From: Planctomycetota bacterium
GTDB taxonomy: Bacteria > Planctomycetota > Phycisphaerae > Phycisphaerales > SM1A02
NCBI GenBank assembly: GCA_016873255.1
Contig: VGXR01000001.1
Location: 1-64,000 of the forward strand
Length of the DNA: 64,000 bases
Direction of reading: 5' to 3'
The notes under the pieces are model-generated. The model was not told the origin of the DNA. It searched no databases and saw nothing but the letters and a program-made list of their open reading frames with translations. The position numbers were made by a program, and so were the translations under genes. Positions 8,276 to 63,834 of this stretch are shown here, piece after piece. Position 1 is the first letter of the stretch; the number at the start of each line of letters is the position of its first letter.

Positions 8276-8355
8276 CGCGCGCTCACGGCACGCAGGACGT
8301 TGGACGCAGGACGCGCCGCCGCACGCACGACGCAGCACATTGCAAGGAGCGACTC

Positions 8356-9420
8356 ATGGACGAGTCCGGACTGTTCCCAGGCTTCGGCCAGCCCGAAGAT
8401 CGCCGCCCCGACGGGGCCGGCAAGCGCACGCGACGCACCAAGAAGGCCACGGCGCCGGGCACGCCGGCGGCGGGCGCGGCCGCACGCGGCGAGGTTCCCG
8501 CGACCGAGCCCGCCCCTGCTGCCGGTGACGCCGGGGGCCAGGCCACGGCCGTTGCCGCTGCCGCCCTCCCCGGGCGCATGCTGACGCACGAGGACTTCGC
8601 GGCCAACACGCTGACGCACCTCGCGGAGTGCCCGGCGCTGGCGCAGACGGCGTCCGCGGTGGTCGAGCACTGCCTCGCGGCGCGCATGCGGTTCCCGCAC
8701 ACGCTGCTCGTGGGCCCGGCGGACAGCTCCAAGCGCCTGATCGCGCAGGCGATCGCCGCCGACATGGCCGCGCCGTTCCATGCGCTGGAGATGCTGCACA
8801 TCAACGGGTCTGACGCGCTGCACGCGGCCCTCAAGGGCATTCCCGACGGCGCGGTGCTGCTCGTGAGCGGGATCGACACCGTCACGCCGAACGCGCTCGC
8901 CGACCTTGCCCGCGCGGTGGATGGCCGGGAATCGGTGCGCGACACCACCATGCGCGACCTGATGCGGCAGATTGAAGGCGAGAAGTGGAAGCGCCCCGCG
9001 CGCGGCAAGCCCGCCAGGGCCTACGGCGACTTCACGGTGATCCTGACCTCGCGCACGCACGTGCCGAGCGACTCCGCCCTGCACCGCTGGGTGCAGCTGC
9101 AGTTCTTCACGCAGCGCAACGCGCACACCGAGGCCGCACGGCTCGGGCGCGCGTTCCGGCGTGCGGGGGTCGGCATCGTCCCGGCGGCGCTCGCGGAGCT
9201 TGCGCGCTTCGCGGTCACCTTCAAGGTGCGGTCGCTGCAGGCGGCAAGCAGCGTGGCACTGCTGCGCGGCACGGGCGTTGCATGCGCTGCGGCCGCGGCG
9301 GGCCCGGGACCGATCACGGAAGGCGAGCTCGCGCGCACGCTCGAGGGAATGCTCGAGCACGCGATGGACCCAGAGCGGGTGCGCAAGCTCCGCCGCTTCA
9401 TGCGGCGCGCGGCGGCGTAG
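8356..9420 (+). CDS. RuvB-like AAA protein with degenerate P-loop
   Basis: 354 residues, starting at the ATG after AAGGAG. Residues 1-75 are a basic, Ala/Pro-rich tail. The core resembles the RuvB/AAA fold: HTLLVGPADSSKRLIAQAIA at the Walker A position, GAVLLVSGID (165-174) at Walker B, a sensor-like FTVILTSRTH, and a helical lid region (RAFRRAGVGIVPAALAELAR). However, GxxGxGK(T/S) is replaced by GPADSSKR (120-127): the glycine before the lysine is lost and Thr/Ser is replaced by Arg. Walker B ends in a single Asp followed by Thr rather than DE. ATP hydrolysis is therefore doubtful. The role is unknown; the family assignment is by pattern only. Confidence 0.6.
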   Translation: MDESGLFPGFGQPEDRRPDGAGKRTRRTKKATAPGTPAAGAAARGEVPATEPAPAAGDAGGQATAVAAAALPGRMLTHEDFAANTLTHLAECPALAQTASAVVEHCLAARMRFPHTLLVGPADSSKRLIAQAIAADMAAPFHALEMLHINGSDALHAALKGIPDGAVLLVSGIDTVTPNALADLARAVDGRESVRDTTMRDLMRQIEGEKWKRPARGKPARAYGDFTVILTSRTHVPSDSALHRWVQLQFFTQRNAHTEAARLGRAFRRAGVGIVPAALAELARFAVTFKVRSLQAASSVALLRGTGVACAAAAAGPGPITEGELARTLEGMLEHAMDPERVRKLRRFMRRAAA

Positions 9421-54353: not shown

Positions 54354-54581
54354 TCAGCCGGAGTCGCCGGTCGGGCGGATCTGGCCGGCAACGCCCGGGT
54401 TCTCGTCGTCCTTCAGGATCTGGTCGGCCACCTCGCGGCGGTGCACCTCGACCTCCCGGGGGAACTCGAGCGCGATGCGGACGCGATCGCCCTTGATCGC
54501 CGCGATGCGGACGATGCCCAATGGGGCGGCGGGGTTGCCGATCACGACTTCCTCGCCCTCTCGCCTGGTGATCACGAGCAT
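54354..54581 (-). CDS. csrA: Carbon storage regulator CsrA
   Basis: 75 residues, slightly longer than the usual 60-70. MLVITRREGEEVVIG and the RNA-contact strand VRIALEFPREVEVHRREV (including the conserved Arg) are clear. CsrA is a homodimer that binds GGA in hairpin loops of mRNA leaders and blocks or stabilises them. Its own ribosome site is AGGAGG, itself a GGA site. No fliW is nearby. A candidate antagonist RNA lies directly upstream on the same strand. Confidence 0.95.
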   Translation of the reverse strand: MLVITRREGEEVVIGNPAAPLGIVRIAAIKGDRVRIALEFPREVEVHRREVADQILKDDENPGVAGQIRPTGDSG

Positions 54582-54775
54582 CGCGGAACAAGCCTCCTGC
54601 CTGCGCTTCGCCGACCGGGGCGACCGACCTGCCAGCCACTCGGTCTCGCGACCGTTCCATGTGGCCTTACCGGCAGGCAGCGGCGTCAGTGCCGCGCGCA
54701 GCGCAAGGGTAGCGGTCACCATCGGGCGCCCCCAAGCGTGGAATCCAAAGTTTGCGGCCATTCGGCAGCATGGCA
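54582..54775 (-). promoter_or_regulatory. csrA leader with candidate CsrA sites
   Basis: The 194 nt between the terminator at 54776 and the csrA start contain AGGAGG (54593-54598, 11 nt from the ATG) and ACAUGGAACGG (around 54652-54662), both with GGA. These are plausible sites for CsrA repressing its own translation. I see no confident -35/-10 pair. Confidence 0.45.
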
Positions 54776-54816
54776 AATAAAATGCCCCCGCGCCGGCTTT
54801 GGCCGACGCGGGGGCA
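54776..54816 (-). terminator. Intrinsic terminator of the structured RNA upstream of csrA
   Basis: On the minus strand GCCCCCGCG pairs with CGCGGGGGC (9 bp), then one mismatch and 4 more pairs around the loop CAAA, followed directly by ATTTTATTT. It is the most T-rich terminator in the window and lies between mraZ and csrA. Confidence 0.9.
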
Positions 54817-55116
54817 ACGACGGAATCCGGGCCGTAAGGCCCTGCCCCACCAGCGGGCGTGCCCCGAGTGGCCGACCATGGCCGCGTGGGGCTGCAAACC
54901 TGTCGGCCCGTCCATGGGCCGACGTCCTGACCGACGCGTCCGTGAGGACCGCGATCCGAGAGACGCCATCCTTGGCGAGGCGGAGCGCGGCGCCGAAGCG
55001 CGCGTCCCGGCGAATGGGCTGCCGATCCATGGCTGCCCGAGCCGGTTGCGGTGGTGCGCGTTCCTCCCGACGCACCGCCGCGGTGATTCACTTGTCGGCT
55101 GGTTCCGCCAGCCTCG
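54776..55116 (-). ncRNA. Candidate CsrA-sequestering small RNA (CsrB/RsmZ-like)
   Basis: Between mraZ and csrA on the minus strand are consecutive hairpins that present GGA in the loop: CGGAA (55097-55113), GGAGGAA (55053-55076), AUGGAUC (55016-55038), AGGA (54964-54977) and AUGGAC on a perfect 8-bp stem (54902-54923). Two more hairpins, AUGGUC (54861-54892) and UUAC (54829-54842), and a strong T-tailed terminator follow. The AGGA hairpin reads CAAGGAUGG, close to the CsrA SELEX consensus. No coding frame here looks real. The 5' end is unknown; it may have its own promoter or be processed from the mraZ mRNA. Confidence 0.6.
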
Positions 55117-55120
55117 GGGT

Positions 55121-55591
55121 TCAGGTCTCCTGGCGGGGCGCGGCGGAGAGTGCCTGCCGCGCGCGACGCCAGATGTCCGACGTGTCCGGCTGGAGGCGCT
55201 CCTGTTCGCGCTTCCAGGCGGCGGGCTCGCAGAGCTCCAGGTGATCTCGCACGCCGAGGATCATGATGGAGCCCGACAGCCCGAACTTCTGCAGCAGCCG
55301 GTCCGGGATCCGGACCCGGCCCGCGCTGTCCAGGGGCACGCGTGCCGCCTGGCTGAACACGAGCCGCTCGAAGTCCTGCATGGAGGGGTCGCCGACAAGC
55401 GACCCACCCAGTGACTGCGAGAGCTGCGCGAACGTCCGTTCGGGCCAGAGCCAGAGCGAGCCGTTCGCGCCCGGCGCCGCGATGAACCCCTCGCCGTGCC
55501 TCTTCTCATCGAGGACCTCCCGCAGCTCTGACGGAATCGCCAAGCGCTGCTTCTGGTCCAACGAATGCTCGTACTCGCCGAGGAAAAGCAC
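55121..55591 (-). CDS. mraZ: Transcriptional regulator MraZ
   Basis: 156 residues from the GTG at 55591. It has the two AbrB-like half-domains, FLGEYEHSLDQKQRLAIPSE and ARVPLDSAGRVRIPDRLLQK, with the family's D-x-K-x-R and D-x-x-G-R motifs. MraZ normally heads the division/cell-wall cluster and represses it. Here no mraW, ftsL or ftsZ follows; the next features are the structured RNA and csrA. An earlier GTG at 55621 lies inside the operator and upstream of the predicted transcription start, so I prefer 55591, where MraZ proteins usually begin. Confidence 0.92.
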   Translation of the reverse strand: MLFLGEYEHSLDQKQRLAIPSELREVLDEKRHGEGFIAAPGANGSLWLWPERTFAQLSQSLGGSLVGDPSMQDFERLVFSQAARVPLDSAGRVRIPDRLLQKFGLSGSIMILGVRDHLELCEPAAWKREQERLQPDTSDIWRRARQALSAAPRQET

Positions 55592-55618
55592 GGTGAAAGG
55601 CGTCCCGTGGCGCCGGGG

Positions 55619-55663
55619 CACACTTTAACCCACAACGCCCCACTTCGCAACACACTACCCCAT
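55619..55663 (-). promoter_or_regulatory. mraZ promoter with five-box MraZ operator
   Basis: On the minus strand five 5-nt boxes recur every 10 bp: ATGGG, GTGTT, GTGGG, GTGGG and GTGTG, separated by 5-nt spacers. Known MraZ operators are GTGGG/TGGGN repeats with 5-nt spacers. TTGCGA (55650-55645) and TAAAGT (55627-55622) are 17 bp apart within the same stretch, so bound MraZ would cover the promoter. Confidence 0.75.
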
Positions 55664-55864
55664 CATTTCTTCACTTTTTCCGGCGAGTCCGCGAACAATT
55701 GTCAGGAACCGTGCGTAACCCCATGTGCTACGACCGTTTGTGGACACATGTCGATTTCGTCGCAGACTGCAGAGCGCGCGAGTTCAGCCTCCGTCATCGG
55801 TTGGGCGCCCCACCGGGCTCCACCGGCGCCAGGCAGACCGTTCCACGCACCGCCAGAAAGGCTC

Positions 55865-62811: not shown

Positions 62812-63783
62812 TCAAGGAACGCCGGGTCCCGACGCCGGGACGCCCCCGGTCCGCATGCGCTGCGCGAGCTCCGCCGCGCGTCCTGAGCCTGCGAGCCGGG
62901 GGAAGGCGAGGCCATCGGTCCCCTCGGGGGGCGCGCCGGTGGCCTCCGCAACATACACGGGTGCGGCATGGGAGCCACCCGCCGATGCCGCGGATTGATC
63001 GGAAACGGCTGCCGGGGACGCCGCGATCCAGGCCGCGAGCCGCCGGAAGTCCTCGTGCGCGGGCGACCCGGGCGCGTACGCGACCACGGTCTGGCCATGG
63101 CTTGCGGCCTCGCGGAGCAGCTCGTGCTCGCGGATGGGTTCCGGCGCCTGGTGCACCGCGAACTTGCGCCCGATCGCCCCGAGGATGTCGTGCGAGAGCT
63201 GGCTGCCGTCACGATGGAGGGTGGGCACCACGCGCACGGCGGGCGCCCGGCCCACCTGCTCGCAGAGCGACCGGATGGTGGCAAGCTGCCGCTCGGCCCC
63301 TCGCAGGGCGAAGAAGCCCGTCTCCACCGGCACCAGCGCCTCGTCGGCCGCACGGAGCGCGTTGAAGGCGAGGTAGCCGATCGAGGGCGGGCAGTCGATG
63401 ATGCAGCGGTCGAAGGACGGGGCCATGCGCTCGAGCATGCGCTGCAGCCTGCGGTCGCGGTCCGGGAGCGATGCCAGGCCGCCGCGCGCGCTCTCGAGCC
63501 CCGCGAGCGCCACGGTGCACGGCGCCAGCCGAAGCCCGCGCGAGACCTCCCACAGCCAGCCGAGCGGATCGGCGCCGCCCGGGGGTTCGCAGAGGAGGGC
63601 CTGCGCCAGGCCGAACTCGATCCGCGACTCCGGCACGCCCAGCCCCGCCGCGCAGTGGCCCTGCGGGTCCATGTCCACGAGCAGCACCCGCTCGCCGGCC
63701 TCCGCGAGGGCGGCCGACAGGTTGATGGCGGTCGTGGTCTTGCCCGACCCGCCCTTCTGGTTGACGATGGCGATCGTTCGCAT
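62812..63783 (-). CDS. ParA/MinD-family ATPase
   Basis: 323 residues. The deviant Walker A is QKGGSGKTTTAINL (9-22), the Walker B-like motif is VLLVDMDPQGH, and IIDCPPSIGYLAFNAL follows as in ParA. Such ATPases position plasmids, chromosome origins, chemoreceptors or other cargo. There is no parB beside it, so chromosome partitioning is not supported; the Ala-rich C-terminal 60 residues are atypical. It lies downstream of aroB on the same strand with a 51-nt gap. Confidence 0.9.
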   Translation of the reverse strand: MRTIAIVNQKGGSGKTTTAINLSAALAEAGERVLLVDMDPQGHCAAGLGVPESRIEFGLAQALLCEPPGGADPLGWLWEVSRGLRLAPCTVALAGLESARGGLASLPDRDRRLQRMLERMAPSFDRCIIDCPPSIGYLAFNALRAADEALVPVETGFFALRGAERQLATIRSLCEQVGRAPAVRVVPTLHRDGSQLSHDILGAIGRKFAVHQAPEPIREHELLREAASHGQTVVAYAPGSPAHEDFRRLAAWIAASPAAVSDQSAASAGGSHAAPVYVAEATGAPPEGTDGLAFPRLAGSGRAAELAQRMRTGGVPASGPGVP

Positions 63784-63834
63784 CCGTGCGTCCGTGCACG
63801 CAGGATCGGCGGTGCGCGGGCGCGGCCTTGAAAG

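Follow-up and report, generated by a model that had tools for sequence, protein, structure and literature searches.

According to a published account, titration of CsrA by small RNAs is known from no class other than Gammaproteobacteria (PMC4333381). Outside this class, the hairpin RNAs TwoAYGGAY and Bacillaceae-1, which display AYGGAY, have been proposed from sequence as CsrA binders (PMC4333381), and putative Csr sponge RNAs have been predicted in Geobacter (PMC11934962); these predictions rest on motif or machine-learning matches (PMC4333381, PMC11934962). A sponge can also derive from an mRNA, as in Xanthomonas, where the RsmA-sequestering RNA RsmU is a processing product of the comEA mRNA 3' UTR (PMC7694677). 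The site bound by RsmE is an ANGGAN hairpin (PMC7652899), and the residue of CsrA that contacts the protein antagonist FliW is Asn55 (PMC11934962). Antagonism by sRNAs and by FliW has been termed 'mutually exclusive' (PMC7366521), and the joint action of the two has been called undetermined (PMC7652899). We found no description of a planctomycete or mraZ-linked CsrA sponge RNA in the open-access literature; the planctomycete phylum is noted for its unusual cell division (PMC12283558).

Here we describe a candidate CsrA-sponge RNA in an uncultured member of the planctomycete order Phycisphaerales. In the window that we analysed, a continuous stretch of 64,000 nucleotides, the candidate occupies 54776..55120 on the minus strand and extends over 345 nt from the stop codon of mraZ to the tail of a terminator; it is marked by conservation within the genus, covarying hairpins and the lack of a conserved reading frame. 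It shares the strand of the cell-division regulator gene mraZ (55121..55591, minus; Pfam PF02381, E=2.4e-21) and lies at the 3' end of this gene, with a csrA gene (csrA1, 54357..54581, minus; Pfam CsrA, 1.2e-13) on its other side. Both neighbours had been named in a preliminary description made from the DNA letters, and the Pfam matches bear them out.

The candidate RNA is a succession of small hairpins, all given here on the minus strand. Hairpin 1 (55097..55113, GGCTGG-CGGAA-CCAGCC) has an invariant stem and a CGGAA loop, which is without GGA at three loci in the alignment of relatives (L002, L003 and L005). Hairpin 2 (55054..55075) has the form GTGCG...GGGAGGAA...CGCAC, with GGGAGGAA in its loop. 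Hairpin 3 (55016..55038, GGGC-A-GCC-AUGGAUC-GGC-A-GCCC, 3+4 pairs) exposes the loop AUGGAUC, of the form A-N-GGA-U, and five of its pairs show changes on both sides within the genus. Hairpin 4 (54990..55001, GCGC-UUCG-GCGC) is invariant, carries no GGA and appears structural. The next two, hairpin 5 (54964..54977, CGCC-AAGGAU-GGCG, loop AAGGAU) and hairpin 6 (54902..54923, GTCGGCCC-AUGGAC-GGGCCGAC, loop AUGGAC, 8 perfect pairs), both close their loops with a C-G pair. All five GGA-loop hairpins listed in the preliminary description were recovered, its 'AGGA' being CGCC-AAGGAU-GGCG at 54977-54964, and so was its stem of eight perfect pairs, at 54923-54902. Hairpin 7 (54870..54883) has the loop AUGGUC, that is ANGGU and not ANGGA; this is kept genus-wide, ANGGUY (GGU) standing in place of ANGGAY throughout the genus, and the hairpin may be a weaker CsrA site or serve otherwise. 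The RNA ends in an intrinsic terminator (54783..54816), first described as 9+4 bp and found here to comprise 15 pairs followed by TTTTATTT; this terminator is the sole terminator-like site in 54500-55720. Immediately 5' of the terminator stem, TTCCGTCGTT (54816-54825, minus) is invariant in the genus.

On the csrA-sense strand, positions 54776-55116 contain 11 GGA (3 on the opposite strand), where dinucleotide shuffles average 5.9 +- 1.8 (p = 0.004), which agrees with the initial count of eleven at roughly twice expectation. Three hairpins present A-N-GGA loops of 6-7 nt, where the shuffle mean is 0.08 and 0 of 2000 shuffles reach three. The minimum free energy of the interval is -198.5 kcal/mol (z = -5.1), and the reverse strand reaches z = -5.5; since both strands fold equally well, folding energy is uninformative about the strand and was left out of the strand evidence. 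The GGA count and folding of a single genome are only suggestive. Loop placement of GGA had been singled out as the stronger point; the decisive evidence is comparative.

Among congeners the interval is about 68-79% identical. Indels of 1, 2, 7 and 17 nt separate these genomes, and we found no conserved reading frame in the interval; the indels exclude one, as expected from the original view that the approximately 340 nt between mraZ and csrA hold no convincing gene. When the structure derived from the source genome alone was placed on the genus alignment, 96.7% of the cells were paired and 11 pairs had changes on both sides. Double-change cells numbered 28, versus 7.5 in shuffled alignments and at most 6 when the partners were slid by 1-3 columns; several stems and the terminator are invariant in this alignment and are thus neutral for covariation. 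A 7-pair hairpin model showed both-sided changes at all 7 pairs, scoring 1.009 where shuffling gave 0.220 and sliding no more than 0.21, its inner pairs being biased towards covariation because the hairpins were preselected for at least 5 pairs. The alignment of relatives, which had been suggested at the outset as a check, shows conserved hairpins and conserved loop GGA and no conserved frame, an outcome that favours the proposed reading.

The region behind mraZ was surveyed in a discovery set of 48 non-redundant loci from six families (f1-f6), from which we collected perfect hairpins of at least 5 pairs with a 6-nt loop, GGA not being demanded. Even so, this unsupervised collection had GGA as the central loop triplet in 55 of its 200 hairpins, the runner-up being GGC with 10. 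Loops of the form A.GGA. occurred 50 times behind mraZ versus 0.63 in shuffles, with none on the antisense strand, none upstream of mraZ and none at 900-1350 nt downstream. Among 72 hairpins with ANGGA loops, 65 had a C-G closing pair, a preference that was unselected, as only pairing was demanded in listing them, and loop position 2 was evenly mixed. The consensus across relatives is thus an A-N-GGA-Y loop closed by C-G (CANGGAYG), and it matches the published CsrA/RsmE site (PMC7652899).

For a held-out set, GTDB genomes were scanned with an MraZ alignment, yielding 80 named loci, mostly from Phycisphaerales or other planctomycete MAGs and many of them lake-derived; the 57 that were previously unseen and non-redundant entered the test. 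These loci carried 94 A.GGA. hairpins on the mraZ strand versus 1.06 expected by shuffling, together with 1 antisense hairpin and 0 upstream. The closing pair was again C-G (86/94), and the next-best A.XYZ. triplet reached 5. A locus holds between 1 and 8 canonical hairpins, typically 2-4; that many loci have 2-4, below the number in CsrB, counts against a sponge reading.

The RNA spans the order Phycisphaerales; elsewhere in the class it is weak or lacking. It is strong in family f1 and present in f2, f3 and f6, three families in which the hairpins lie behind mraZ though csrA is located elsewhere. In f4, csrA1 is present and canonical hairpins are limited to one at each locus (5 of 6 loci), and in f5, csrA1 is missing and hairpins occur in 3 of 6 loci, partly within a short ORF, leaving the RNA uncertain there; the co-occurrence of the RNA with csrA1 is therefore not strict. 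At four f5 loci (L033, L031, L035 and L043) a short, conserved-looking ORF follows mraZ, with no clear RNA. Other orders of Phycisphaerae have hairpins above shuffles, on the sense strand only, at 1-2 per locus and possibly within coding sequence, and we make no claim for the RNA in them. From the rest of the phylum, 25 mraZ loci gave 2 sense hairpins and 1 antisense, which we read as absence of the RNA.

The RNA follows mraZ rather than csrA. At the 64 loci where the two genes adjoin it was present in every case and always on the mraZ strand, both in the 24 tandem arrangements (mraZ>RNA>csrA>) and in the 40 convergent ones (mraZ>RNA> <csrA). Sense hairpins at these loci amounted to 192 (69 tandem, 123 convergent) and antisense hairpins to 0, and a terminator-like hairpin followed the last GGA hairpin at 56 of the loci (22 tandem, 34 convergent). 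No more than tens of nt separate the mraZ stop codon from the start of the RNA. With 3'-UTR-derived sponges it shares a position directly behind an ORF on the same strand and an end at a predicted transcript terminator. Because it lies behind mraZ on the strand of that gene, with csrA mostly on the opposite one, an RNA of the mraZ 3' UTR is likelier than a stand-alone gene. Most likely, the RNA would be made as the distal portion of the mraZ message or be cleaved from it.

We consider it quite probable that a non-coding RNA which titrates CsrA is encoded here, as the 3'-terminal portion of the mraZ transcript or a piece cut from it. The preliminary description had proposed an independent sponge RNA beside csrA; a CsrB/RsmZ-like titrating RNA is indeed the best explanation, but the RNA goes with mraZ. 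An independent sRNA gene, transcribed from a promoter within the last part of mraZ and otherwise a normal CsrB-like sponge, would suit an element that is compact, terminator-ended and conserved irrespective of csrA orientation. We find it rather doubtful, as 54500-55720 showed no sigma-70-type promoter site, although promoters of another type may operate in these bacteria, and the 3' end of mraZ is not unusually conserved in the alignment of relatives. Distinctly unlikely, in our judgment, is a role chiefly in cis, whereby CsrA would bind the mraZ 3' UTR and alter mRNA stability or MraZ output, with titration of CsrA minor. The constant position of the RNA on the mraZ strand behind mraZ, beginning tens of nt past the stop codon with no promoter-like site of its own, speaks for such a role, but several to eight near-identical sites exceed the need of a cis switch, the motif is retained even though loci differ freely in how many hairpins they have, and csrA adjoins the RNA in most of one family. 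A cis role and titration could coexist, by analogy with dual-function mRNAs.

In the source genus the RNA runs in the same direction as csrA and upstream of it, as would a cis-acting 5' leader of csrA. This explanation is highly improbable and we ruled it out, given that 40 of the 64 relatives have csrA convergent and none of the hairpins on its strand; in addition, the terminator stands between the RNA and csrA in the source genome, and csrA1 has a conserved leader of its own with its own ANGGA site. We give almost no credence to hairpins that arise by chance or from base composition in GC-rich intergenic DNA, or to a small protein gene: the single genome has only a modest GGA excess and open frames abound at 71% GC, but the 94 hairpins versus about 1 in the held-out loci, the near-zero antisense and upstream controls, the stem covariation and the frame-shifting indels all argue against it. 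The protein-coding reading was rejected on these indels and on a Pfam search.

The protein encoded by csrA1 is a divergent CsrA paralogue of 75 aa, in which the equivalents of R6, R44 and E46 are present and that of Asn55 is absent. With 50.7 of 73 and 45.7 of 70.1 bits it misses the two NCBIfam equivalog cut-offs for CsrA, and it contains an insertion of 4 residues; automatic annotation may therefore overlook this paralogue. Of 61 related genomes, 52 have an orthologue of csrA1 and most hold a second, weaker csrA (csrA2). FliW was found in 41 of 44 good genomes; fliW adjoins csrA2 where positions were compared, in the source genome on contig C18. The RNA-binding residues R6, R44 and E46 are kept in 70/70 CsrA1 and in all CsrA2 compared. 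Asn55 occurs in 10/10 CsrA2 and in 6/70 CsrA1, and the C-terminus is longer in CsrA2 and shorter in CsrA1. Three genomes (G014, G018 and G030) are devoid of FliW and the second csrA and retain csrA1 and the RNA. The Asn55 pattern and this gene content suggest that the RNA has CsrA1 as its client and FliW has CsrA2, and both paralogues may be bound by the RNA. Judging by gene content, one genome contains both a candidate sponge RNA, next to csrA1, and fliW, next to csrA2. FliW had been named as the usual antagonist in other phyla; it is present here beside the second csrA, yet it is no substitute for the RNA.

We propose that each hairpin would bind one RNA pocket of the CsrA dimer, as ANGGAN hairpins do with RsmE, and that the multi-site transcript would sequester CsrA and free CsrA-repressed mRNAs. 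CsrA1, lacking the FliW-contact Asn55, would be the likely main client, with CsrA2 remaining under FliW. The region upstream of mraZ at 55622..55662 (minus) is a predicted mraZ promoter, with TTGCGA-17 nt-TAAAGT and MraZ-type TGGGN repeats at 10-nt spacing, which we take to be MraZ sites; its sequence is kept in the genus and the repeats occur in 21 of 24 family loci. Carried on the mraZ mRNA behind such a promoter, the RNA would share the autoregulation of MraZ, so that the sponge level would track it and tie CsrA activity to division and cell-wall control; it is the conserved repeats that point to this control by MraZ.

The same hairpin recurs on or close to the translation start of genes that would be candidate targets, among them csrA1, csrA2 and ftsL-like and parA-like genes; these were picked by eye and are leads only. 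The leader of csrA1 (54592..54665, minus) holds the conserved hairpin CCACANGGAWCGGUCGCGAGACCGNGUGG and the Shine-Dalgarno GCAGGAGGC, and ACANGGA and the AGGAGG ribosome site are conserved in the alignment of relatives; they are candidate sites of CsrA autoregulation. Similarly, an ANGGA hairpin lies over or near the Shine-Dalgarno in the csrA2 leader of genome G022 (L108, 658-677), and a similar GCCAAGGAAGGC lies across it in that of the source genome (L101, 1720-1745), giving candidate autoregulation sites beside fliW. A genome-wide search with hairpin model R1, which was trained on the same loci, scored 150 of about 1000 candidates per genome. Hairpin 6 was the best genome-wide match among the candidates scored, and at least two R1 matches within 300 nt were seen, by eye and among these 150 of about 1000, only behind mraZ; a second sponge may exist elsewhere in the genome. 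Single matches elsewhere, chosen by eye among the best-scoring ones, were often on translation starts. One such hairpin, GCGTGCACGGACGCAC (63783-63802, minus), immediately precedes the start of the gene for a ParA-like ATPase, a candidate CsrA target, and another (8349-8368, plus) holds in its AUGGAC loop the likely ATG of a 354-aa ORF with a weak AAA match. At a further locus of the source genome (L096, G000:C41:5954-7973), a CsrA-type hairpin ends one base 5' of the ATG of an FtsL-like gene (NCBIfam FtsL 9.6e-8, under the cut-off). In two congeners (L097, G000:C50; L102, G005:C107) such a hairpin lies 5' of a gene starting MD(L/I)ASPTRP, also a candidate target.

We see about an even chance that the wider picture is right, namely two parallel CsrA circuits in a bacterial order outside Proteobacteria, one of FliW with CsrA2 and one of an mraZ-3'-end sponge with CsrA1, such that MraZ autoregulation would set global post-transcriptional control, ftsL-like and parA-like targets included, and with a sponge of independent origin from CsrB/RsmZ. 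The locus offers an order-wide, covariation-supported candidate sponge RNA in a genome that also encodes FliW, the two lying beside different CsrA paralogues, which makes the question of joint sRNA and FliW action directly testable, and it suggests the regulator MraZ as a new input to the Csr system.

No Rfam family reached its gathering score in the interval, nor did any covariance model of clan CL00106 (Csr/Rsm RNAs). On a permissive scan RsmW (RF02809, Csr clan) matched over its full length, with a hairpin bearing a GGAC loop and then a GC-rich terminator, but RsmW is a Pseudomonas-type RNA and the match (27.7 bits versus a gathering score of 52) is far under threshold. TwoAYGGAY (RF01731) and Bacillaceae-1 (RF01690), which belong to Clostridia and Bacilli, gave no match in the interval even at permissive E-values. 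An sX6 match on the plus strand over the terminator region (22.5 bits, below 40) was dismissed as chance similarity of GC hairpins.

In common with RNAs of the CsrB/RsmZ type, the candidate has several ANGGA-loop hairpins, a covarying structure without a conserved ORF, a Rho-independent terminator and, in the same genome, a CsrA with intact RNA-binding residues. It resembles CsrB/CsrC and RsmX/Y/Z in its GGA-loop hairpins with the CsrA consensus, its intrinsic terminator, its non-coding nature and its proposed titration of CsrA. Those RNAs, however, are intergenic genes controlled by GacA/UvrY, whereas the RNA described here belongs to another phylum, lies behind mraZ, coexists with FliW and has no sequence or covariance-model match to them. 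FliW, known to antagonize CsrA in Bacillus and Campylobacter, is likewise a CsrA antagonist and is found in the source genome beside csrA2, but it is a protein acting on the C-terminal extension of CsrA, and CsrA1 is without a conserved Asn55. The closest architectural analogue is RsmU (PMC7694677), a sponge from an mRNA 3' UTR, although RsmU is confined to Xanthomonas, has 3-4 GGA and comes from another host gene, comEA, and the RNA here may or may not be processed. It would apparently be a new and independent variant, CsrB/RsmZ/RsmU-like in its working and RsmU-like in its build, outside the known Rfam families.
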